DNA of 32,648 bases from Oscillospiraceae bacterium. GTDB lineage: Bacteria; Bacillota; Clostridia; Oscillospirales; Oscillospiraceae. The translations under genes and the position numbers were made by a program. Shown piece by piece: positions 1 to 10,259 of the stretch. Below the pieces are notes generated by a model. That model worked only from the letters and a program-made list of their open reading frames with translations, did not search any database and had not been told where the DNA came from. Location of the stretch: contig CAJTEA010000027.1 in NCBI GenBank assembly GCA_910575265.1, positions 1 through 32,648 on the forward strand, read 5' to 3'. The stretch's first letter is position 1. Each line of letters starts with the position of its first letter.

Positions 1-98
1 TCAAGCGTTTTCGCCGTATTTTTACCCGCTATGACAAGCTTGATGTTATCTTTTTGACTTTTGTCTATTTTGCACTTATTGTTGATGCCCTTATGTGA
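1..98 (+). pseudogene. IS5-family transposase, C-terminal end (cut by window edge)
   Basis: Frame 3 reads RRIFTRYDKLDVIFLTFVYF and continues to a TGA at 96-98. This is the conserved C-terminal tail of clostridial IS5-family DDE transposases. Only about 31 residues are visible because the window begins inside the gene, so the rest may be intact. The bases after the stop (about 98-106, GAACACTACC) probably form the terminal inverted repeat of the element. The neighbouring Rpn gene on the other strand ends inside this boundary, which suggests that this IS inserted into it. The family call is recognition of the tail motif; the exact IS end is inferred. Confidence 0.75.
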
Positions 99-101
99 AC
101 A

Positions 102-608
102 CTACCTAGCATTACCCTCCGTATAACGACTATTTAGAAAAAATACGTGAGAGCCATCCTCATAGGGAATATTTGTTCCTTTTAGAAAACTGATTCGTTC
201 ACCCACCGCTTTTCCAGTTTGAAAATAGTCAAAATCACAAACGAAAATTACATAACTCTCAGAAAGGCCTGTGTAGTCTGCTCCTTTTGTGAGTTGGTTG
301 CGATCAATAGCGCTCTGATAAAATCCGGCTCGTCTAGTAAATCCTTTTTTGCGGTCGACCTGCATTTCTACATTGAAGACCGTACCTTTTTCATCCTTCA
401 AATACACATCCAACCGTATGCCATGATACTCATAACTATCAGACAGATCCTTTTGCTGGTCAATAAATTTAATATGTTGGATCGTTATACCCAACAGTTC
501 CTCCAAAAACAACTTGCAAATTTCCGTTGATCGCATAACTTGACCAAACATGAAGTCGCTATGTAAAGGTAATTCACTTAGTGGAGTAATATTGTATCTT
601 GTAGGCAC
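102..608 (-). pseudogene. Rpn-family PD-(D/E)XK nuclease (recombination-promoting nuclease / putative transposase), 3'-truncated
   Basis: I choose the GTG at 608, which has GGAG eight bases upstream; the open frame reaches 890 but lacks a ribosome site there. The 168-residue product opens with the family's N-terminal signature (PLSELPLHSDFMFGQVMR) and carries a PD-(D/E)XK-like core: RLDVYLKDEKGTVFNVEMQ, where D and the E-x-Q are the probable metal ligands. The pattern SYVIFVCDFDYF then GSHVFFLNSRYTEGN follows, as in Rpn/PDDEXK_2 proteins. Full-length relatives are usually near 300 residues, so about 40% is missing. The reading frame stops at a TAG that lies at the presumed IS5 end. Rpn proteins promote RecA-independent recombination, and some act in defence. 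Activity of this truncated form is doubtful, although the catalytic part is retained. Confidence 0.8.
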
Positions 609-747
609 TAAAACCACTCCAATTCTCTTATTTTTATTAGTATTATAGCATAAAAAAATAAAGTTAGTCAATTTTTTGAGAAGAAATTTGCAACAATAAT
701 ATACGACCCACCCAACATAAAAAATTTGACAGTTTCTCAAATTCATG

Positions 748-776
748 TAGAAAGCTATGCCAAGTGGTGCTATAAT
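748..776 (+). promoter_or_regulatory. Extended -10 promoter facing the invertible segment
   Basis: A perfect extended -10 (TGc then TATAAT at 771-776) has a weak -35 (TAGAAA, 748-753) 17 bases upstream. The start site would fall near 783, inside the left inverted repeat (781-804). The promoter therefore lies outside the segment bounded by the repeats and points into it. In the orientation shown it transcribes the pentapeptide-repeat gene. Confidence 0.7.
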
Positions 777-780
777 ATAA

Positions 781-804
781 ATGGTAGATAATCTGCAATT
801 ATCG
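781..804 (+). repeat. Left inverted repeat of putative DNA inversion switch
   Basis: This 24-bp sequence recurs in opposite orientation at 4532-4555 with one mismatch (base 5, T versus C). The shared run is ATGG, one variable base, then AGATAATCTGCAATTATCG. It contains a perfect dyad, GATAAT-CTGCA-ATTATC (787-803), as expected of a tyrosine recombinase core site with two half-sites. It also encodes a ten-codon micro-ORF (MVDNLQLSTE) with no ribosome site, which I take as incidental. Confidence 0.7.
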
Positions 805-879
805 ACTGAATGATGTTGGATACGGCTTTGTCCTGTTAAAAGAAGAAGGGGCATAGCGCAAAAACAAGAGGTGTAATAC

Positions 880-2361
880 ATGGAATACATAAAGAGAGAT
901 CACTTGACACTTGTGCAAGAGCAGTTTCAAGGTAAAACATTCCAAAACATCACATTTGAACGCAGTGACATCGACAATTGCAAAATCGAAAACTGCCGAT
1001 TTTTAAACTGTAGTTTTGACCGATGTAGTATCACCTGTGTCCGCGCAAAGGACTGCGTATTTGAAGGATGCAAATTTCGAAACGCTGATATATTGAGTAA
1101 TGAGATGGCAAATTGCCGGTTTCAGGAATGCGATTTTTCTTTGGTAACCTTTTGTGATAATACTTCTTTTCAAGATCAGTTTGCTCAACCCAATTTTTTA
1201 AGCGCCAATATTAAGGGAAATGAGTTTCTGTTTTCCACCTTTGTGCATGCATCTTTCCGCGGCAGCATGATCAGCCTGAATATTTTCCGGCAGGCCACAA
1301 TAAAAGACAGTGAATTCGGAAATTGCACCGTAGATTATAATATTTCAGAATATTGCGTTTTCCAGCGTTCTTGGCTCAACATTGAAATACTGGGAACCTT
1401 TTTTGGGCTTCGTTCTGATGATATGCTGGAGTGCAGATTCTTGCTCCTCGGTGAAGAGATCGTAGAATCAGACTGCGAGGCGTTGTATAACAGCGCTCAG
1501 CGGCAATTTGAGCAAGAAGGCCGCTATATGGAGCAGTTCCTTTTGGATATAAACCGGTCTTTTGACGAATTGCTCCCGGCGACGGAACGCTTGTGCATCA
1601 ATTTGAAGCAAAGAATGTTCAGTGGGGATCATGTCCCCTCTGACCAACTGCAATTTCTTTTTCATGTGTACAAAGAACTCTACCGTCAGAAGCATCTGGG
1701 ATTTCTTGCTCTCTACCAATTGGAGCGAAGCATCCTGGAAATACTCGACGGCATTTCTCCAACAAATAAATGCTATGAAAAAGTCCTTCTCCTGTACAAC
1801 GACCTAGGTCTTCTTCACCGGTCGATGACAGCGGATTTGGCAGCGCTTGCAGAAGAACGTGCTCTGGAAGATAACAGTCCAATGATCGTACGCTTCAAAT
1901 TTGAAAAAAAACCGCAGATAGCTATGGACGAAATATTAGAGATCTGCTACTACTATGTATTTGACTGTGCGCCAGCTGTGCGTCCCGCCATTTTAGCAGA
2001 GCAGAGCGGTTCTTATGTTGTATTTTTGACTATGACCGTTCAAACATTTGTAGCTTTTCGCATTTGTACGTATTTGTTGTCTGGAAGCATAAAAGAGCTG
2101 GTCAAGATTCGTGCAAACACAACTCTCTTGGTTCAGAAAAAACTTCCTAAAAAGTATTTCCTGGAAGTGACCAAACCGGAATCGACAGTAACTGTCCCCC
2201 AAGCGACTGCGGCCTTGCTGACGAAGCTTATCAAAAAAGTGCTGCCGGAGCCCTTAAAAAATATGCCTCTTAGCGATATAAGCGAGGACAACCTGAAAGA
2301 AGTACAAGAGGTCTCCCAGAAAGACGTTCCAACAAAGCATCACGACCTTTCCGCTAAGTGA
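880..2361 (+). CDS. Pentapeptide-repeat protein with long helical C-terminal region
   Basis: The start ATG follows AGAGGTG at the usual distance. Residues about 15-150 are runs of A/C(D/N)LXX-like pentapeptides (for example NITFERSDIDNCKIENCRFL), which would fold as a right-handed quadrilateral beta-helix. Residues 150-493 match nothing I recognise. They are mostly helical, with a hydrophobic stretch near 390-415 (YVVFLTMTVQTFVAF) that may be one membrane-interacting segment. Pentapeptide proteins include DNA mimics and scaffolds, so no specific function can be given. It is the only gene of its strand in the putative invertible segment and is placed to be transcribed from the fixed promoter at 748-776 in this orientation. 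Its last 22 bases overlap the 3' end of the convergent aminotransferase gene. Confidence 0.8.
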   Translation: MEYIKRDHLTLVQEQFQGKTFQNITFERSDIDNCKIENCRFLNCSFDRCSITCVRAKDCVFEGCKFRNADILSNEMANCRFQECDFSLVTFCDNTSFQDQFAQPNFLSANIKGNEFLFSTFVHASFRGSMISLNIFRQATIKDSEFGNCTVDYNISEYCVFQRSWLNIEILGTFFGLRSDDMLECRFLLLGEEIVESDCEALYNSAQRQFEQEGRYMEQFLLDINRSFDELLPATERLCINLKQRMFSGDHVPSDQLQFLFHVYKELYRQKHLGFLALYQLERSILEILDGISPTNKCYEKVLLLYNDLGLLHRSMTADLAALAEERALEDNSPMIVRFKFEKKPQIAMDEILEICYYYVFDCAPAVRPAILAEQSGSYVVFLTMTVQTFVAFRICTYLLSGSIKELVKIRANTTLLVQKKLPKKYFLEVTKPESTVTVPQATAALLTKLIKKVLPEPLKNMPLSDISEDNLKEVQEVSQKDVPTKHHDLSAK

Positions 2362-3500
2362 GACAGTACACGCTCAAGAGCTCTGGGGAAACGGATCGGG
2401 TCAAAACGCGCAAGGTTGATTCGAAAGGAAAAACCACATAGATCAGGAAAATGAAAACGAGTCCCCGGGATAATGCTCGTACCAGTATTCGCCTGAAACG
2501 CACAAAAATCTGCAATTTCATTCAGATAGTCGGCTTTCAATTTTGGTATGCAGCACATCATCATATGTCCATCCGCACAACGATCCAGATCGGCCTCTCC
2601 AATTTTTGAAACGATGGTTTTTACCTGCTCCTGGATCGTTCGGTTTGCCTGCTGAATCGACGGCCGCAGAAGATCCGATTCCTGAGAAATAAAATAAGTC
2701 ATGGCCTGCACGGTCGAGCTTGTCAAACTCCCGCACACCACATCCGACCATTGCTCTATCACATTTTGCAGTTCGGCAGGATAGATAATGGCGGAAAATT
2801 TCAACCCATTGATCAGAAATTGCTTCATTGGATCATAGATGCCGATAAAGTGTGACTGGCCCCCGAATTTCCGTGAGAGCTCCCTTCCCTGTTGGCAAAA
2901 GCATTCGTCTGCGATGAGGTATTTGTCAGGCAACACATATCTGCTCAGAAACTTTTGATCGTCCTCATCCAAATAGACGCCAGTATTGTAAACTGGGTTG
3001 GTGATCCAGAGGACGTCTATTTCATTTATCACACGGAGGATTTCCTCCTGCGGCAGCCGGTATCCATTTTGCCTGCGCAACATGTGGAACTCTTTTAATT
3101 CAAAGCCCATTTGTCGACTGCTGTACAAAACGGAGAAATACGTTGGACTGATGACCAAGATGCGTTTGTACTTCAGTGCAGACAGAACCGCGATCATCAA
3201 GGTGATAGATGCCGTTCCTGAGTTTGTGATCGTGATCGGCATATCCTCCAAACCGGTTAGACGACGGCAACAGGATCTTAACAGCTGGGGATCCAGTTCG
3301 TACGAATAAATATAATCTATAGGGTTGGTATATTGCGGCAATTTGACTTTATTAAAAAGATATGTATTTCGATAATAATCAGAAGGATCCCAGGTCGAAA
3401 GGGAAAACGGTATATGGCCATAAATGCTTTTGTACTGCTTTTCAGCCGACTCGATCTCATCCAGCATCAACAGTTCTTGGATCATGCTCATGTCAGACAT
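2340..3500 (-). CDS. Fold-type I PLP-dependent aminotransferase (class I/II)
   Basis: The 386-residue protein shows the aminotransferase I/II landmarks in order: NSGTASITL near residue 93 (phosphate loop), NPVYNTG at 168-174 (the family NPxNPTG site), ADECF with Asp198 (pyridine-nitrogen ligand), MKQFLINGLK with Lys226 as the expected Schiff-base lysine, and a C-terminal RINLARF arginine for substrate carboxylate. The length is normal. The ATG at 3500 has AAAGGAG eight bases upstream and overlaps the end of the ATP-grasp gene by 13 bases, so the two are probably translationally coupled. The substrate cannot be read from sequence. Pairing with a D-Ala-D-Ala-ligase-like enzyme suggests that it makes or modifies an amino acid which the ligase then joins to another molecule. 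Confidence 0.85.
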   Translation of the reverse strand: MSDMSMIQELLMLDEIESAEKQYKSIYGHIPFSLSTWDPSDYYRNTYLFNKVKLPQYTNPIDYIYSYELDPQLLRSCCRRLTGLEDMPITITNSGTASITLMIAVLSALKYKRILVISPTYFSVLYSSRQMGFELKEFHMLRRQNGYRLPQEEILRVINEIDVLWITNPVYNTGVYLDEDDQKFLSRYVLPDKYLIADECFCQQGRELSRKFGGQSHFIGIYDPMKQFLINGLKFSAIIYPAELQNVIEQWSDVVCGSLTSSTVQAMTYFISQESDLLRPSIQQANRTIQEQVKTIVSKIGEADLDRCADGHMMMCCIPKLKADYLNEIADFCAFQANTGTSIIPGTRFHFPDLCGFSFRINLARFDPIRFPRALERVLSHLAERS

Positions 3501-4495
3501 CTGCCAGGCTCCTTTCTATAATGCAAATATGCTGATCGGACGATCTCGAGAATAATTTCTTCAAACGACCCTTCCCCGCCATACGAGATTGGATCAAAAG
3601 CTCCTTCATATCCTAAACTGGGGATACAGTTAGCCTCCAAAAAATAGACGTCTCCTGTCTCCGTAATGCGCAGATCAATACGGCACATATCCCGCAACTT
3701 AAGATGACGATATAGTCTTAAACAATCTTGTAGTGTGCGCTGTGTGAGCGGATCATCATGCGGGAAAGAGACGAGTTCCACCAGGTCATCCAGGTCAGTT
3801 TTCCATTTCCGGTCATAAAGGCGTAACGGGCTTCTATCAGGTGCTGTATACTGAACCAATGCTAATGCACGGGCAGAATGGCCTGTGCCAACGATAGGAA
3901 CGGCAGCTTCCATACCAGGTATATATTCCTGACATACAACTGAGCTTTCCTCTTCTGCCAGCGCAAGCCTTTTAGCCTCAGCCGTCAGTGTGGCAAGATC
4001 TTCTGCAATAGTAACGCCATAACTCATCGTACCATAGCGATATTTCAAGACTATAGGAAAAGGAAGCTGGCTTTTTATAGCTTTTTTCTGTATATCAAAA
4101 TCTGTGTCACAGGCAGTTACCTCAAATCCTTGTGGACACTTCAACCCAAGTCCACAGCAAATATTCTGAAACAGGATTTTGTCAGCGGTCAGTGTAAGGC
4201 CATAAGCATCACTTCCGATATACGCGATCCCGAGCAACTCCCACAACGAGTGTAGTAGTCCGGGACTGTTGCGCTCAAAACAGTTTTCGATTAGTGAAAA
4301 TACCAGCTCATCTGTTACGTCTCGTGTCTCTCTGCTGTCTAGATATGCTCTCACCGAATCCCATGTGGATACGGGGATATTGTTTTTCTCAAGGATATGT
4401 TTTATCTGCTGGAGATGTTGTTTATCGCTTCCATACAGTTCCATATGCCGCCGCCAGCGCACTTCCCTATCCTGCGAAACGATCGCTATTTGCAT
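3488..4495 (-). CDS. ATP-grasp ligase of the D-Ala-D-Ala ligase family
   Basis: I start at the ATG at 4495 because it has a strong GGGAGGGG site five bases upstream. The frame is open back to the ATG at 4555, inside the right inverted repeat, without a ribosome site. The 335-residue product follows the D-alanine ligase layout: an N-terminal pre-ATP-grasp domain (MQIAIVSQD), then VFSLIENCFERNSPG, YIGSDAYGLTLTADK, the ATP-binding lysine in FPIVLKYRYGTMSYGV, EYIPGMEAAVPIVG, and the Mg-binding RIDLRI plus EANCIPSLG end. It probably forms a peptide or amide bond through an acyl phosphate. It need not make D-Ala-D-Ala, because it sits in an accessory island with an aminotransferase. I see no promoter between the upstream hairpin and the gene in this orientation, so it may be silent here. 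Confidence 0.82.
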   Translation of the reverse strand: MQIAIVSQDREVRWRRHMELYGSDKQHLQQIKHILEKNNIPVSTWDSVRAYLDSRETRDVTDELVFSLIENCFERNSPGLLHSLWELLGIAYIGSDAYGLTLTADKILFQNICCGLGLKCPQGFEVTACDTDFDIQKKAIKSQLPFPIVLKYRYGTMSYGVTIAEDLATLTAEAKRLALAEEESSVVCQEYIPGMEAAVPIVGTGHSARALALVQYTAPDRSPLRLYDRKWKTDLDDLVELVSFPHDDPLTQRTLQDCLRLYRHLKLRDMCRIDLRITETGDVYFLEANCIPSLGYEGAFDPISYGGEGSFEEIILEIVRSAYLHYRKEPGRCLT

Positions 4496-4531
4496 ACTAT
4501 CCCCTCCCCAATCTACATCCATCTGCGCGAC

Positions 4532-4555
4532 CGATAATTGCAGATTATCTGCCAT
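4532..4555 (-). repeat. Right inverted repeat of putative DNA inversion switch
   Basis: This is the reverse complement of 781-804, 23 of 24 bases identical. Flanking bases outside and inside do not match beyond that length, so the repeat is discrete. It lies 36 bases upstream of the ligase start codon and carries the same internal dyad, GATAAT-CTGCA-ATTATC. Confidence 0.7.
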
Positions 4556-4564
4556 ACAGAGCAG

Positions 4565-4590
4565 CAGGCCGCCGGGTGATCGGCGGCCTG
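4565..4590 (-). terminator. GC-rich hairpin between recombinase and right repeat
   Basis: CAGGCCGCC (4565-4573) pairs perfectly with GGCGGCCTG (4582-4590) around an 8-base loop. It follows the recombinase stop codon on the minus strand but has no U-tract, so termination may be weak or factor-assisted. Its position would stop recombinase transcripts from reading into the ligase operon. Confidence 0.5.
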
Positions 4591-4595
4591 TGTGA

Positions 4596-5504
4596 TTAAA
4601 GCGAAAATGTCATTTTTCCTCTAGGGTGCTTTTCAGCCAGAAGCATGGTCTGTTGTGCTGTTGCGACATGCGTGTATATTTGTGTTGTAGAAATAGAACT
4701 ATGACCTAGTAAAGCCTGTATGTATCGGATATCCATCCCAGCTTCCAAAAGAGACGTTGCAAACGTGTGCCGGAACATATGGGGTGTAATGGGGTAATTT
4801 ACCCTAATCTGCTTCAAGTATTTTTGAATGATTCTTCGAACTGACTGAGGAGAAAGGGGATTTTTCCTTTTATTGAGCAAGATAAAGCCATGCGCTTGTA
4901 TTTCTTCCTGAAACTCACCAAAGTAAGTTTTTGCAAGTTGAACCAGCTCTGGCGTTGTGATTTGCAGCACACGTTCTTTGTTTCCTTTTCCACGTACTAG
5001 CAGGCAGAGTTTGTGATTCTCCAAAAGAAAGGTATCCTTGGTCAGTGCGCACAATTCCGACACGCGAAGGCCAGTGCTAAACAATAGCTCCAGCACCATG
5101 ATGTCCCGTAAGATATCTCGGCGGTTAGGGTCGTAGGCATCATACGCACCCTGCAACAGGCTTTGGACAATTTGGCCCGGGATAATTCTTGGAAGCTGCT
5201 TAGGGGATTGGATACGGATATGTAGCTTTTCAAACGGATTTTCTTTCAATACACCATTCAACATGAGTTCGTGGAAAAAAGCCCGAATGCTTGCAAGTTT
5301 CCGCTTTACAGAGCGAGGAGCAAAGTTCTGATTCAAGTGCTTGATGTACTCGCTTAAGATATCCCGGTCGGGCCACATATCGCCTGTAAACTCGGAAAAT
5401 TGCCTCAAGTCAATTCGATATGCCTTGAGGGTATTTGCTGCAAGCTTTCGTTCGTATTCGCCCACTTCAAGGTAGTCAGTAATAGCTTTAGACAATGATT
5501 TCAT
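4596..5504 (-). CDS. XerC/XerD-type tyrosine recombinase, candidate invertase
   Basis: The 302-residue protein has an N-terminal SAM-like core-binding domain (about 1-90) and a complete catalytic domain. All expected catalytic residues are visible: Arg147 (TGLRVSEL), Lys173 (RGKGNKER), His242 and Arg245 (HMFRHTFAT), His268 (LGHSS) and the nucleophile Tyr277 (IYTHV). The length is that of stand-alone Xer and invertase enzymes; there is no Arm-binding domain as in phage integrases. The ATG has GGAGGA six bases upstream. It sits 41 bases outside the right inverted repeat and is transcribed away from SIR2. The most economical role is inversion of the 805-4531 segment. It could instead be a passenger Xer-like enzyme. 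Confidence 0.88.
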   Translation of the reverse strand: MKSLSKAITDYLEVGEYERKLAANTLKAYRIDLRQFSEFTGDMWPDRDILSEYIKHLNQNFAPRSVKRKLASIRAFFHELMLNGVLKENPFEKLHIRIQSPKQLPRIIPGQIVQSLLQGAYDAYDPNRRDILRDIMVLELLFSTGLRVSELCALTKDTFLLENHKLCLLVRGKGNKERVLQITTPELVQLAKTYFGEFQEEIQAHGFILLNKRKNPLSPQSVRRIIQKYLKQIRVNYPITPHMFRHTFATSLLEAGMDIRYIQALLGHSSISTTQIYTHVATAQQTMLLAEKHPRGKMTFSL

Positions 5505-5537
5505 AAATTGTCCTCCATTTCTGCTTAGAATGTCTCT

Positions 5538-5566
5538 ATTATGGAGATTTTGTCATATATTGTCCA
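5538..5566 (-). promoter_or_regulatory. Promoter of the tyrosine recombinase
   Basis: On the minus strand, TGGACA (5561-5566) and CATAAT (5538-5543) are separated by 17 bases, each one base off consensus. It lies 34 bases upstream of the recombinase start codon and outside the putative invertible segment, so recombinase expression would not depend on orientation. Confidence 0.6.
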
Positions 5567-5603
5567 TTATTTGTTTGATAGTTTAAAATTATTGAAGAGC
5601 GGG

Positions 5604-5632
5604 TTGAGTTTGTCCTCAAAATAGCTTATACT
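5604..5632 (+). promoter_or_regulatory. Promoter of the SIR2-HerA operon
   Basis: TTGAGT (5604-5609) and TATACT (5627-5632) are spaced by 17 bases. Transcription would start near 5639, which rules out the in-frame ATG at 5637 and supports translation from 5673. Confidence 0.6.
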
Positions 5633-5672
5633 TTACATGTCGAAAGTTGTTCTTTTGAGGAGTTGTGAACAC

Positions 5673-6659
5673 ATGGAACGAGACGATATTTTTCGAGCTA
5701 TTCAAGTTGCAGTTGAAGATACACCTCTTTTGATGATTGGAAGCGGAAGCTCTGCACCGTATGGACTCCCAGGTATGCAGGAATTAGGGGAACATCTCTT
5801 AAAGCAGTTGGATTCCAAATACTCTGGTGAAAAATGTTGGAACACTTTCCGCGAAAATCTTCAGGCTGGCCAAGATTTGGAAAGTGCGCTTTCCGATATT
5901 ACATTTCCCTCTGATATACTCAATGATGTTAAATGGGAAACATGGTCATTGATTTCTTCGCGGGATTTTGATTTGTTTGGCCGTATCCTTTTTGGACATC
6001 AGGAGTTGGCGTTATCAAAATTGTTGAAGAAGCTTTATCAAGCCACTCCGCAGAAAATAGATATTATAACGACAAACTATGACCGGGTCGTCGAGTACGC
6101 TTGTGATTTAGCGCAGATACCAGTTGCAAATGGATTTTATGGCTGTTACCATAAACATTTTGACAAAGATTTTCCTTTGAAAAAAAGTGTAAATTTGGTC
6201 AAAGTACATGGTTCTTTGGATGTATTTTGTGATACCCACGATGTTGCTGTTTCAGTTCCAATGTTAAAAGATCGGGTACCAGGATTAATTCCTGAAATAA
6301 TTACGCCAGGTGCTTCAAAGTATGCGGCTGTTTTAACAGGTACTCCACGCCAACTTCTGAGTGCAGCAGACGAGCGGATAGGACAAGCCAGAAGCTTTTT
6401 ATGTATTGGGTATGGATTTAATGATGCTCAGATACAAGAAAATATTTTGACCAAAGCTCGGGTCGGTGTACCTGTTGTTGTATTAACAAAGGAAGTATCG
6501 GATCATGCGGCACATTTATTGGCAAATAACGCAAAAAACTACATCTCCATTCAAGAAGGCAAAAAGAAAAACACCACTGAAATTTGCATTAATAAAGAAA
6601 TTGAGATACTGGACGGGACATTTTGGACCATAGATGGTTTTATGGACATTATTTCTTAG
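5673..6659 (+). CDS. SIR2-domain NADase effector of a SIR2-HerA defence system
   Basis: I start at the ATG at 5673, which has GAGGAG ten bases upstream; the longer reading from 5637 begins at or before the predicted transcript start. The 328-residue protein carries SIR2 signatures: MIGSGSSAPYGLPG near residues 21-34 for NAD binding, TTNYD at 133-137, the catalytic-type histidine in VHGSLD (His179) and FLCIGYGFND late in the domain. SIR2 proteins encoded beside HerA ATPases form large complexes that hydrolyse NAD+ or cut DNA on phage infection and cause abortive infection. The stop is nine bases before the HerA start, so the pair is one operon. Family and pairing are clear; phage specificity cannot be inferred. 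Confidence 0.88.
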   Translation: MERDDIFRAIQVAVEDTPLLMIGSGSSAPYGLPGMQELGEHLLKQLDSKYSGEKCWNTFRENLQAGQDLESALSDITFPSDILNDVKWETWSLISSRDFDLFGRILFGHQELALSKLLKKLYQATPQKIDIITTNYDRVVEYACDLAQIPVANGFYGCYHKHFDKDFPLKKSVNLVKVHGSLDVFCDTHDVAVSVPMLKDRVPGLIPEIITPGASKYAAVLTGTPRQLLSAADERIGQARSFLCIGYGFNDAQIQENILTKARVGVPVVVLTKEVSDHAAHLLANNAKNYISIQEGKKKNTTEICINKEIEILDGTFWTIDGFMDIIS

Positions 6660-6668
6660 GAGGTCTCT

Positions 6669-8369
6669 ATGAGCGTATTTAATTTTGATACAATGAATAC
6701 ATTTGGACGGGTTCAAAGTGTTGACACTGCTACGATTGTTGTACAGGTAGAGGATGCCGCTCAACTATCCAAACTCCAGGTCAATCATTTGATTGCCATT
6801 CGTGCCTCTAAAGTTGGCCAGACCTTGATTGGAATGGTTAATAAAATCATGCGCAAATTTGGTAATGAGTTTGGTGTAGAAGACTCGGAAGAAATTATTT
6901 CTACCGATATTGTAAAAGTCACTCTAATCGGTACACTTCTTGACAGAGACGGTGAACGAAGAAACGTATTCAAACGGACATTAGAATCTGTCCCCGAAAT
7001 TGATTCGGAATGCTTCATTATGACAGATGATACGCTTACTGCATTTATGAGTGTGATTTCTGGGGCTGATTCTGGAATGGAGCATCCCTTACGGATTGGT
7101 AAGTACACAATCAACAATGGAGCACCCGCATGGCTGGATGGCAACAAACTATTCCAACGCCATGCCGTTATTGTTGGAAGTACCGGCTCTGGAAAATCTT
7201 TTACAGTTGCTACGCTATTAGAAAAAATTGCAGAATTAAAATCCTGCAACGCAATTCTCTTTGATATTCACGGAGAATACTCGCCTATTACAGGGGCTGG
7301 TATCCAACATTACAAGATTGCAGGCCCTTCTGATGTGCCCTCTGAACAAATTATGTTTCTTCCCTACTGGCTGTTGAGTTATGAAGAGATGCTTGCTCTG
7401 ATGCTGGATCGTTCCGATTCTAATGCACCCAATCAGGCAATGATATTCAGCCAAGCAGTGATGAAAGAAAAAATCTCCGTGCTGGAAGGAACTGGGCACA
7501 ATGAACTGGCCAGTGAAATCACTTTGGATAGTCCTGTGCCTTATCGCATTACCCAGGTCCTTGACTTTTTAGATGCAAAAAATGTAGAAATGGTACCTGG
7601 ATCAGGGACCCGGGAAAAGCAGGGAGATTTTCACGGGAAACTACCTCGTTTTATCCAACGTCTCAATGCCAAAATGATAGACAAACGTCTGAATTTCATG
7701 TTTTCTGATTCGGAAGAACTGCTGGATGTTTCCTATATGGAAACACTTTGCAAACAACTTATGGCTCCAGCCAGTCAGGGTGGCGGCATTAAAATATTGG
7801 ATTTTTCTGAGGTGCCCTCAGACATCCTCCCGTTGATCGTATCCCTTCTGGCACGTATCGTTTTTTCTGTACAGCAATGGATGGACAGAACGAAGTTGAA
7901 TCCGTTGGCGATTTTCTGTGATGAAGCACATTTGTATATTCCAGCTAATGCTCAGCAGGGGGTTGAATTATCGAGTTTACAGAGTTTTGAGCGGATTGCA
8001 AAAGAAGGCCGTAAATATGGGATTGGTCTGGTAATTGTAAGCCAGCGCCCTTCCGAAGTGAATCGTACAGTGCTCAGTCAGAGCAGCAACTTTATTGCTA
8101 TGCGTCTAACTAATGCGGACGACCAAGCTGTAATCAAAAAACTTCTTCCAGACAGTATTGGTAATTTTGCCGACCTGCTTCCGATCTTGGATATTGGAGA
8201 AGCGATTGCTGTAGGTGACGCATCCTTATTGCCCAGCCGTATTATAATTGATATTCCCAGACAAAAGCCTAACAGTGCAACAGTGAAATTCTGGGACGAA
8301 TGGAGTAAAGAAAGTGTCTCCGATGACATTGCCGCTGCTGTGCAGGCTATGAGGCGTCAAGGACGGTAA
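6669..8369 (+). CDS. herA: HerA-family hexameric ATPase of the SIR2-HerA defence system
   Basis: The start has TAGGAGG directly upstream. The 566-residue protein has an N-terminal HAS-barrel-like region (about 1-100, GRVQSVDTATIVVQV), a Walker A motif GSTGSGKS at 170-177, an FDIHGEYSP element after it, a Walker B LAIFCDEAH near residue 415, and the HerA arginine-finger region VIVSQRPSEVNRTVLSQ with the sensor stretch MRLTNADDQ. These are diagnostic of HerA/FtsK-superfamily DNA-pumping ATPases. In this two-gene arrangement HerA assembles with SIR2 as a supramolecular anti-phage complex. No nurA gene is nearby, which argues against a DNA-end-resection role. The length is ordinary and the gene is intact. 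Confidence 0.9.
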   Translation: MSVFNFDTMNTFGRVQSVDTATIVVQVEDAAQLSKLQVNHLIAIRASKVGQTLIGMVNKIMRKFGNEFGVEDSEEIISTDIVKVTLIGTLLDRDGERRNVFKRTLESVPEIDSECFIMTDDTLTAFMSVISGADSGMEHPLRIGKYTINNGAPAWLDGNKLFQRHAVIVGSTGSGKSFTVATLLEKIAELKSCNAILFDIHGEYSPITGAGIQHYKIAGPSDVPSEQIMFLPYWLLSYEEMLALMLDRSDSNAPNQAMIFSQAVMKEKISVLEGTGHNELASEITLDSPVPYRITQVLDFLDAKNVEMVPGSGTREKQGDFHGKLPRFIQRLNAKMIDKRLNFMFSDSEELLDVSYMETLCKQLMAPASQGGGIKILDFSEVPSDILPLIVSLLARIVFSVQQWMDRTKLNPLAIFCDEAHLYIPANAQQGVELSSLQSFERIAKEGRKYGIGLVIVSQRPSEVNRTVLSQSSNFIAMRLTNADDQAVIKKLLPDSIGNFADLLPILDIGEAIAVGDASLLPSRIIIDIPRQKPNSATVKFWDEWSKESVSDDIAAAVQAMRRQGR

Positions 8370-8458: not shown

Positions 8459-9106
8459 ATGGGGTATTCAAAAGGTATTCAGCAAGAAGTTTTTATAAAA
8501 TACGTGTGCGGATACACGCCAAAAGAAATTGCAGAAGAATCTGGAATCCATTTTGTCACAATCTATCGCTGGATTAATGACTGGAAAAAAGATTTGAATG
8601 GTCACCCACTGACTGATCTCCCGATTCAAGATATCGGAGCAATTCTTACTTATACTGAAAAACTGAAGCAAAGACTGGAAGAAGCAGAACGCTCCTTATC
8701 AATTATCCATACAAGCGGAATCCTCCAAACAATTCCGTTGAGACAGAGAATCAGCATGGCACTACCACTTTTAAATTCATATCCAGCCAGGTTTCTTGCC
8801 CAAACTTTTGAAGTGTCTCTCTCATCCATTTATTATCATAAACGGCAGGGACAAGGGAAGACAAAGCGTCAAAAGCTGGACGATTATATCAGTTCAAAAG
8901 TCCAAGAAATCTTTATAGAAAGCGATGGCCGTATTGGTGCGGAACGAATTCGTATCCAACTGCATAATCAAGGTATAGTCACCAGCAAAAAGAAAATCAT
9001 CAAGCTTATGAAGCAAATGGGGCTTGTCAGTAACTGTCGTTCAGATACTTATTACCCCTCTGAATCTCAGGAAGCGGAGGGGGATAATGTCCAGATTCTA
9101 CAGTGA
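8459..9106 (+). CDS. IS3-type helper protein: HTH plus HTH_21 region without DDE domain
   Basis: The 215-residue product begins with a helix-turn-helix (YVCGYTPKEIAEESGIHFVTIYRWI), then a coiled segment (YTEKLKQRLEEAERSL). A region typical of the IS3 OrfB N-terminus follows (SSIYYHKR, DGRIGAERIRIQLHNQGI, KIIKLMKQMGL). It ends before any rve/DDE catalytic core. The same architecture is repeated at the start of the next gene, so this looks like a duplicated DNA-binding half that became a separate protein. It could be a regulator or accessory DNA-binding subunit of the transposase. It overlaps the next gene by 20 bases. Its Shine-Dalgarno site is buried in the hairpin just upstream. Confidence 0.75.
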   Translation: MGYSKGIQQEVFIKYVCGYTPKEIAEESGIHFVTIYRWINDWKKDLNGHPLTDLPIQDIGAILTYTEKLKQRLEEAERSLSIIHTSGILQTIPLRQRISMALPLLNSYPARFLAQTFEVSLSSIYYHKRQGQGKTKRQKLDDYISSKVQEIFIESDGRIGAERIRIQLHNQGIVTSKKKIIKLMKQMGLVSNCRSDTYYPSESQEAEGDNVQILQ

Positions 9107-10259
9107 TGCGTATAAATGGTCGCTATACGAAAAATACAGAAATGGATTTACACTGACAGAACTGTGCGAAATATCTGGAGTAACCGACAAACCTCTGCGA
9201 GAGTGGTTTAGACAAATTGATTCTCAATATGCTCAAAGTGCTCAGCTAAGTGTAAAATCTGTACAGCATGAAAATGCACATCTGAAGCTAGTAATTCAGC
9301 AAAGGCAGAACGAATTAACACTTTTGAATAAGGTCGTAGCAGATATCCCCGAAATCCAGCGTATTTCCTATGCCTATCCGTTACTTGAGATTTATGGTCC
9401 CAATCAAGTTTGCCGTTCATTGTGCATTCGAAAATCCAATTTATACTACCGTACTTTCCGCAGACCAGAGGTCACTGTTTACGAAAAGCACAACCAAGAA
9501 CTTCTCCCTGTAATTCAGGAAATCTGTGAAAGAAGCATTCAACGACCTGGTTCGGAAAATATTCGCCAACAGTTAATGGGTCAAGGCTTTACAGTCAGCA
9601 AACATAAAGTTTTAGAGCTGCTCCGCGAGATTGCCCCGCAGCCGCCCAGCAAAAGGGAATGCACGAACACAAATTGGCAAAGTAGCGATGCCAATCTGTT
9701 GGCCCGGCATTTTTCACCGCGAGCACCTAACATGGCATGGGTCAGTGACATCACAGAGTTTAAGACAGATATTGGAACTTGCTACCTGTGTGCGATATTA
9801 GACCTGTTTGCCAGAAGAGTCATAGGAGCGAGGCTATCGCTCCATAAGGATACATCGCTGGTACTTTCAACATTCCGAGACGCATTTGAGGTGAGGGGCC
9901 ATCCCGCCAGCCTGCTTTTTCATAGCGACAGAGGTTCTCAATATACAGCCCACAAATTCAGAGGACTGCTTCTCAAGTATGGAATAAAGCAATCTTTTTC
10001 CGCTCCAGGCGTTCCCTATGACAACGCTCCAATGGAATCCTTTTTTGCCAGCCTGAAAGTGGAGGAAACCCATCGTTATCGCTATGCAAACATAAGTGAC
10101 CTGACCGCTTCGCTCCGGGATTACATCTCTTTTTACAATGAAAAGCGCCCACACTCCAGTATCGGGAATTTGGCTCCAATTCAAGCGGAAAACAACTATT
10201 ACAAAGAACAAAGCACAGCCAATCATATCGGCTGCGCTCATTTCGTGTGCAAAAAATAA
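9087..10259 (+). CDS. IS3-family transposase (DDE)
   Basis: I start at the ATG at 9087, which follows GGAGGGGG, not at the upstream in-frame codon at 9024. The 390-residue protein has an N-terminal HTH (FTLTELCEISGVTDKPLREWF), the HTH_21-like region (SNLYYRTFRRP ... NIRQQLMGQGFTVSKHKV) and a complete rve integrase core. The catalytic triad is visible: Asp221 (WVSDITEF), Asp281 (FHSDRGSQY) and Glu317 (NAPMESFFASLK), with the DD(35)E spacing of IS3. The C-terminal FYNEKRPHSSIG motif is also typical. Unlike canonical IS3 elements it needs no frameshift, because HTH and DDE parts are in one frame. The element's terminal inverted repeats are not obvious to me. Confidence 0.88.
   Translation: MSRFYSDAYKWSLYEKYRNGFTLTELCEISGVTDKPLREWFRQIDSQYAQSAQLSVKSVQHENAHLKLVIQQRQNELTLLNKVVADIPEIQRISYAYPLLEIYGPNQVCRSLCIRKSNLYYRTFRRPEVTVYEKHNQELLPVIQEICERSIQRPGSENIRQQLMGQGFTVSKHKVLELLREIAPQPPSKRECTNTNWQSSDANLLARHFSPRAPNMAWVSDITEFKTDIGTCYLCAILDLFARRVIGARLSLHKDTSLVLSTFRDAFEVRGHPASLLFHSDRGSQYTAHKFRGLLLKYGIKQSFSAPGVPYDNAPMESFFASLKVEETHRYRYANISDLTASLRDYISFYNEKRPHSSIGNLAPIQAENNYYKEQSTANHIGCAHFVCKK

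Follow-up and report, generated by a model that had tools for sequence, protein, structure and literature searches.

The stretch of DNA analysed here (the window) spans 32,648 nt, positions 1-32,648 of contig CAJTEA010000027.1 from Oscillospiraceae bacterium (GCA_910575265.1), and near its left end carries what is probably a site-specific DNA inversion switch. Two copies of a short inverted repeat enclose a segment with a gene for a pentapeptide-repeat protein and, converging on it, genes for an aminotransferase class I/II-like protein and an ATP-grasp protein. Outside the left (distal) copy lies a predicted promoter that points into the segment, and outside the right (proximal) copy a GC hairpin is followed by a gene for a XerC/D-like tyrosine recombinase. 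The coordinates of these features are collected in Table 1.

The two copies of the repeat match at 23 of 24 positions, with a longest exact stretch of 19 nt; in 200 dinucleotide shuffles of window positions 1-8000, the longest exact inverted repeat was 11-16 nt. With up to three mismatches allowed, the 18-nt pattern GATAATCTGCAATTATCG was found at two places only in the 3,613,510-base genome, namely in the two copies. Each contains the near-palindromic core GATAAT-CTGCA-ATTATC (general form GATAAT-N5-ATTATC), intact and identical in both, and the proximal core sits 47 bp beyond the recombinase gene. This near-palindrome resembles the paired binding arms and asymmetric crossover spacer of tyrosine recombinase sites, and the window repeat accordingly looks like a recombination site. 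The genome holds five exact cores, four of them in two recombinase loci (the window and a second one, L047), and a backward control pattern of the core gave zero matches in it. The fifth copy (genome G000, contig C10, 76980-76996) lies outside both loci and is either a chance occurrence or an orphan site.

The extended -10 element TGcTATAAT, 10 bp outside the distal core, scores 8 of 8, and the -35-like site matches its consensus at 4 of 6 positions with 17-bp spacing. On the opposite side, the 36-bp leader of the ATP-grasp gene is without a -10-like site (best score 4), and the leader of the pentapeptide gene has a weak one (score 6). The pentapeptide and aminotransferase genes overlap tail to tail by 22 bp. 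We propose that the GC hairpin is a terminator or insulator; no Rfam families were found in window positions 600-5700. For the ATP-grasp gene, the start at 4495 is common to 18 aligned homologues of the 21 listed besides the window's own (P0034-P0036 were omitted from this alignment) and is preceded by a good ribosome-binding site, GGAGGGG. It is thus the most likely start, rather than the opening of the longer open reading frame (ORF) at 4555, and with it the right repeat lies outside the gene, 36 bp upstream. An N-terminus added to this ORF by the repeat had been considered as a functional part and was dropped. The sequence-only reading of this DNA had described a 24-bp inverted repeat with one mismatch around two convergent units, an extended -10 promoter just outside its left copy and pointing in, no visible promoter upstream of the ligase, and a GC hairpin with a complete tyrosine recombinase outside its right copy, and every one of these elements is borne out by our analysis.

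The recombinase carries a Phage_integrase domain (PF00589, E 2.3e-41). Tyrosine recombinases share the motif R-K-HxxR-H-Y, and R147, K173, H242, R245, H268 and Y277, which we take to be the catalytic residues, are invariant in an alignment of nine recombinase rows. The protein misses the curated cut-offs for XerC (232.1 of 335.15 bits) and XerD (230.2 of 329.6 bits).

To place the locus in a family, we examined 30 recombinase loci (the window, L033, L047, L055-L061, L062-L080 and L085). Searches with the recombinase gave eight matches in its own genome at E 1e-10, the nearest one other than the window's being taken up; matches in 7 of 64 genomes of the genus at E 1e-60 (nine places, all taken up) and in at least 22 of 400 genomes of the family at E 1e-80 (at least 23 places, all taken up); a match in at least 1 of 398 genomes of the phylum, this one being the starting genome; and matches in 4 of 35 genomes of one further genus, one of them new (L085). 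L033 was reached through the pentapeptide alignment search. Downstream of the recombinase, 22 of the 30 loci have an exact core, which is 47-79 bp away in 18 of them. Both ends of the segment are covered in 13 loci (the window, L033, L047, L056, L059, L066, L069, L071, L072, L075, L076, L078 and L079), and in the other nine core-bearing loci the contig end is reached within 6.4 kb downstream. In all 13 complete segments the cores are inverted and share the same non-palindromic 5-nt spacer within a locus; from locus to locus the spacers are mostly different, and the repeats are 18-73 bp long. Exactly two cores are present in 11 of these segments. L033 has four, in two matching pairs, and L066 has three, one of them unmatched; in both, the pair of cores was our choice. 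L033 has a 73-bp perfect inverted repeat and the gene layout of the window, and its recombinase, adjacent to the cassette, is 46% identical to the window's. Its two repeats (2045-2117 and 5865-5937) each carry two cores, 34 bp apart, with spacers ACCTA and CTGGA. The unmatched extra core of L066 sits near its distal end.

The layout of the window recurs as well. All 13 complete segments contain a tail-to-tail gene junction, with an overlap of at most 47 bp or a gap of at most 11 bp, and 11 of them have gene sets that point into the segment from the core at either end. Outside the distal core, an inward -10-like site with a score of at least 6 is present in 10 of the 12 loci with enough sequence; outside the proximal core, one of 13 loci (L071) has a site of that score. 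As a control, a score of 6 is reached by 8.2% of random 33-mers of these loci and by 18.2% of AT-rich ones. Between the recombinase stop codon and the proximal core, a hairpin with z no higher than -3.4 is present in 17 of the 18 loci covered by this test, that is, those of the 29 scanned that have a core within 110 bp; the exception is L077 (z -1.1).

Direct evidence of inversion comes from L069 and L072, found in two genomes of one genus. Their flanks are collinear at 84-87% identity, and the segment between them aligns in reverse, at 99.1% over 7,711 bp, the alignment ending at the cores. From core to core both segments measure 7,704 bp and are 99.2% identical when one is inverted and 26.4% identical in direct orientation. 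The family has therefore undergone inversion at this pair of loci, and we infer that the window's own locus inverts too. In L072 (oriented 4763-7126), the longest ORF of the glycosyltransferase beside the recombinase runs through the core (4777), so the site may be read as codons when the segment is turned this way. Further hints come from assembly breaks: a mixed population is expected to make the assembly fork at a site that falls short of the usual word length, and in 7 of the 22 core-bearing loci the contig stops within 8 bp of a core (0.039 expected within 10 bp), at the proximal core in L060, L062, L063, L068, L070 and L080 and at the distal core in L076. The contig of L034, a further locus with the pentapeptide cassette, begins 5 bp before a core. 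In 9 of 37 protein rows, some of which may share a contig, the longest contig has 3,696-3,845 bases, near the segment size; this would fit assembly breaks at both sites, a point to which we give little weight. The sequence-only reading had proposed comparing homologous loci for the opposite orientation. For the pentapeptide cassette this found none, with the window and L033 alike and L034 broken at the core, and for other cargo it succeeded, in L069 and L072.

Table 1. Features of the window locus and cargo carried by related loci (cargo at the two segment ends separated by a slash)
Feature	Locus	Position	Strand	Remarks
Fixed promoter pointing into the segment (predicted)	Window	748..776	+	-35-like 748-753; extended -10 TG(768-769)nTATAAT(771-776)
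Left (distal) inverted repeat	Window	781..804	+	Core 787-803, GATAAT-CTGCA-ATTATC
Pentapeptide-repeat protein, 493 aa	Window	880..2361	+	Proposed state 1 gene; N-terminal pentapeptide-repeat part, C-terminal part without named family
Aminotransferase class I/II-like protein, 386 aa	Window	2340..3500	-	Proposed state 2 gene
ATP-grasp protein, D-Ala-D-Ala ligase type, 335 aa	Window	3488..4495	-	Proposed state 2 gene; longer ORF opens at 4555
Right (proximal) inverted repeat	Window	4532..4555	-	Core 4533-4549, spacer CTGCA as well, on the minus strand
GC hairpin between recombinase stop and proximal repeat	Window	4565..4590		z -4.0
XerC/D-like tyrosine recombinase, 302 aa	Window	4596..5504	-	Complete gene; proposed invertase
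Pentapeptide protein / aminotransferase + ATP-grasp	Window, L033			
Same three genes as the window	L034			Last gene cut by contig end
1,084-aa AAA/NB-ARC-type protein / NodU-like carbamoyltransferase	L047	C37 226-6280		AAA_16 and NB-ARC matches below Pfam cut-offs
1,388-aa protein with SIR2-like, STAND-like and TPR-like stretches / glycosyltransferase + ATP-grasp	L056			SIR2, STAND and TPR matches below Pfam cut-offs
823-aa AAA protein / ATP-grasp	L059			
Spermidine-synthase-like / unknown	L066			
Glycosyltransferase / 1,036-aa KAP-type NTPase with TPR	L069, L072			Plus outward pair
ThsA-like SIR2-STALD / TIR (Thoeris partners)	L071	119-2231		Tail to tail
TIR / AAA-type	L075			AAA/STAND match below Pfam cut-offs
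Unknown, 1,033 aa / glycosyltransferase + nucleotidyltransferase	L076			
Two unknowns	L078			
Unknown, 803 aa / ATP-grasp	L079			

Taken together, the window locus is most probably a site-specific inversion switch of the fixed-promoter, either/or type, to which we assign a probability of about 0.86. The XerC/D-like recombinase would recombine the two inverted cores and turn the 3.76-kb segment round, and the promoter would stay fixed and read whichever gene set faces it. In the assembled state the pentapeptide gene would be transcribed; because the two units overlap tail to tail, the transcript would probably run on antisense through the silent aminotransferase and ATP-grasp genes. After a flip, it would be the ATP-grasp and aminotransferase genes that the promoter transcribes. 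The hairpin would shield the other segment end from transcription of the recombinase. The adjoining recombinase is presumably the one that acts, and the anatomy suggests that expression is mutually exclusive, here and across the family. The promoter-capture switch put forward in the sequence-only reading thus largely holds, in that the core, the layout, the outside promoter-like site and the hairpin recur and the family inverts; the flip in this strain itself and the transcription of one side at a time are the parts that stay conditional. The single locus it described belongs to a wider family with varied cargo.

Several observations weigh against this interpretation. The gene calls outside the window are mechanical longest ORFs. 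No core accompanies the recombinase in 8 of the 30 loci (L055, L057, L058, L061, L065, L073, L074 and L085), and in 4 of the 22 core-bearing ones it lies 249-1,236 bp away (L060, L068, L059 and L078), with a further gene in between in L059 and L078. L069 and L072 depart from the layout at one end, where glycosyltransferase and UDP-glucose-dehydrogenase genes read outwards. The promoter test is a consensus match, L069, L071 and L072 share flanks, the distal sites of L056 and L078 score 5 and 4, and the proximal side of L071 scores 6. The contig ends at cores could also stem from strains with different cassettes. Finally, the pentapeptide cassette was found at three loci (the window, L033 and L034), and the window and L033 have the same orientation. 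This shared orientation would also suit inverted cores that are relics, the family inverting now or in the past and the window locus being locked in the pentapeptide state. L055 lends this some support: its recombinase, 99% identical to the window's, remains although segment and core are missing, and the gene can evidently persist there without its target. However, both window cores are intact and identical, the recombinase is intact, and the inverted L069/L072 segments are still 99.2% identical, which indicates that inversion in the family is not ancient; we consider a locked relic improbable.

It is equally improbable, in our estimate, that the segment inverts while each gene set has its own promoter and is transcribed in either state, inversion being neutral or serving the exchange of cassettes. 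What speaks for it is that 6 of 21 leaders between core and start codon score at least 6, which also counts against a single outside promoter, as some genes may have their own. These include the weak site of the window pentapeptide gene, both ends of L033 (L033's second core) and the large gene of L056, whose 131-bp leader holds TGATAAAAT; in addition, TGcTATAAT was seen by eye inside the L069/L072 segment. In L071 the Thoeris partners are encoded on opposite strands, and the system is considered to require the pair. Against these stand the short ATP-grasp leader of the window with its best score of 4, the outside sites in 10 of 12 loci and the hairpins in 17 of 18. Cassette movement bears on another reading, in which a mobile cassette has the recombinase as its integrase, with the cores serving as attachment sites and inversion arising incidentally. 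Cassettes do seem to move, as the L069/L072 segments at 99.2% identity lie between flanks of 84-87% and L071 has the recombinase-side flank of L072 (93.8%) with different cargo, but homologous recombination in the flanks could explain such exchange. Moreover, integration at one site leaves direct repeats, whereas the cores are inverted in all 13 complete segments, and the recombinase is encoded beyond the segment. We therefore regard an integrase as very unlikely.

The cargo differs between loci (Table 1). L047 is the second flip locus of the starting genome, and its core spacer is unlike the window's. In L071, the ThsA-like protein matches PADLOC at E 7.8e-101; its TIR neighbour matches the best ThsB model at E 1e-10, a weak hit (39.6 bits) that comes second to another TIR-containing model. 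The locus thus encodes ThsA (SIR2-STALD) and ThsB (TIR) together, the gene content by which Thoeris is recognized. When 10 cargo proteins were scanned with PADLOC at E 0.01, four (L047, L059, L076 and L079) had no match, and the matches of the L069 protein and of the AAA-type protein of L075 were only marginal. The cargo on the promoter side varies, with an AAA or TIR protein in L047, L059 and L075 and enzymes in L056 and L076; the contig of L076 ends before any promoter. A split into immune-type proteins and enzymes is a tendency and partly our own reading.

Comparison of the flanks suggests that cassettes are exchanged between loci. The L069 and L072 segments are far more alike than their flanks, and the cassette of L071, beside the flank it shares with L072, measures 2.2 kb. 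In L055, 5.8 kb including the recombinase, SIR2 and HerA genes are 96.4% identical to the window and diverge at the hairpin, the segment and core being missing. It is possible, though somewhat short of an even chance, that these loci form a portable switch family, in which recombinase, fixed promoter and core pair are a socket for cassettes exchanged between species, each holding two exclusive programmes. One side would often be an immune-type protein (AAA/STAND-like, SIR2, TIR, perhaps pentapeptide), which is partly guesswork. The other would be enzymes with the potential to alter the cell surface or a small molecule, such as ATP-grasp with aminotransferase or glycosyltransferase, carbamoyltransferase, or nucleotidyl- and glycosyltransferases. 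If so, a clonal population would be a mosaic of two defence postures, some cells having an intracellular alarm, for example, and others a changed surface or metabolite, and the L071 switch would split two Thoeris partners between cell states.

The flip logic itself is known. In the G segment of phage Mu and the C segment of P1, a coding segment flips between two states before an outside promoter under an adjacent serine invertase (Gin, Cin), and the outputs are alternative versions of tail-fibre genes; the window family has a tyrosine recombinase and unrelated alternatives. Closer in its enzyme is the Vpma locus of Mycoplasma agalactiae, where the Xer-type recombinase Xer1 is encoded beside the locus and inversion links silent genes to one active promoter (PMC2268961). 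The window family resembles it in the adjacent Xer-type recombinase and in DNA inversion towards a single promoter. Vpma, in the same account (PMC2268961), switches several surface lipoproteins of one family, whereas here two unrelated sets lie tail to tail, with one site at each segment end and cargo that varies between species. Phase-variable phage resistance through a site-specific recombinase is also found in a clostridium, Clostridioides difficile, where the antiphage protein CwpV is controlled by RecV (PMC4737114). There the switch lies between a promoter and one gene and is ON/OFF; in the window family entire sets of genes are turned round, which would make the choice either/or. In Escherichia coli, inversion of a coding segment, the e14 P segment, changes phage susceptibility; this is attributed to the serine recombinase PinQ acting on a segment in another prophage, with an effect on adsorption (PMC12529663), and here the enzyme is a tyrosine recombinase. 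The abstract of that paper states that recombinases often lie beside antiphage genes with a function mostly unexplained (PMC12529663). L071 alone resembles Thoeris, in that a ThsA-like SIR2-STALD protein is encoded beside a TIR protein; unlike in Thoeris, the partners converge inside an invertible segment, and one outside promoter would serve one at a time. We found no description of this switch family in searches of an open-access library, a scope that leaves bioRxiv preprints and most subscription papers outside; the sequence-only reading, too, knew of no switch with these outputs. Apparently new is a family of tyrosine recombinases flipping unrelated alternatives set tail to tail, with varying cargo that includes antiphage genes.

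The family offers a concrete role for recombinases beside defence genes, in which inverting a segment selects one of two unrelated gene sets, recognised antiphage proteins being among the cargo. Were the choice exclusive, a genome could encode a defence gene that a given cell leaves unused, and a clonal population would be divided in its response to phages. L071 raises the question of why cooperating Thoeris partners sit where one promoter would serve only one. The short core is a search handle for further cassettes, and L069 and L072 together make a system ready for experiments.

The proteins of the window cassette were further characterized. No PADLOC model matched the window's own cassette proteins or its recombinase at E 0.001. 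The pentapeptide protein misses the curated cut-offs for Qnr (31.6 of 240 bits) and MfpA (29.2 of 360), with matches in the repeat region only, and for the Hailong effector HalA (30.8 of 250 bits), whose fold it matches weakly (TM 0.11 and 0.15). Its predicted model (pLDDT 78.2) has beta-solenoid-like short strands to about residue 194, beyond which come helices and a small alpha/beta region, in places at low confidence, and the 50 Foldseek matches listed are mostly pentapeptide or beta-solenoid proteins, including AlbG, Qnr and MfpA. Gyrase protection and a regulated effector are guesses at its role. The ATP-grasp protein has a Dala_Dala_lig_C domain above cut-off and misses the curated D-alanine--D-alanine ligase cut-off (79.9 of 245.65 bits).

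Searches for relatives of the pentapeptide cassette returned no match in plasmids (DNA and protein) or phages, nor in pattern-limited scans of viral contigs. The cassette was present in 1 of 64 genomes of the genus and 1 of 394 of the order, the starting genome itself each time, and in 1 of 300 genomes of the family of L033's genome, again that genome itself. A first contig scan with a single ATP-grasp protein found nothing; L033 and L034 came up with the pentapeptide alignment. Of 150 family genomes searched for ATP-grasp proteins, 61 had a match, the best outside the window being 31% identical (L004); L004 was rejected as a relative, its locus being unrelated.

Around the switch, SIR2-like and HerA-like genes (5637-8369; PADLOC SIR2 E 7.7e-102, HerA E 3.6e-231) are divergent from the recombinase. 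They form a known type of antiphage pair and lie within the 5.8-kb stretch that is 96.4% identical in L055. Beside this block, two overlapping ORFs with HTH_21 and rve domains (8459-10259) are presumably an IS3-like transposase; in L067, an rve/HTH_38 gene follows the first cargo gene. On the other side, a gene for an Rpn-type PD-(D/E)XK nuclease (102-890) is divergent from the switch promoter. Its listed ORF overlaps the switch, but the domain does not start until residue 112-114, and a gene start near 606 looks likelier by eye.

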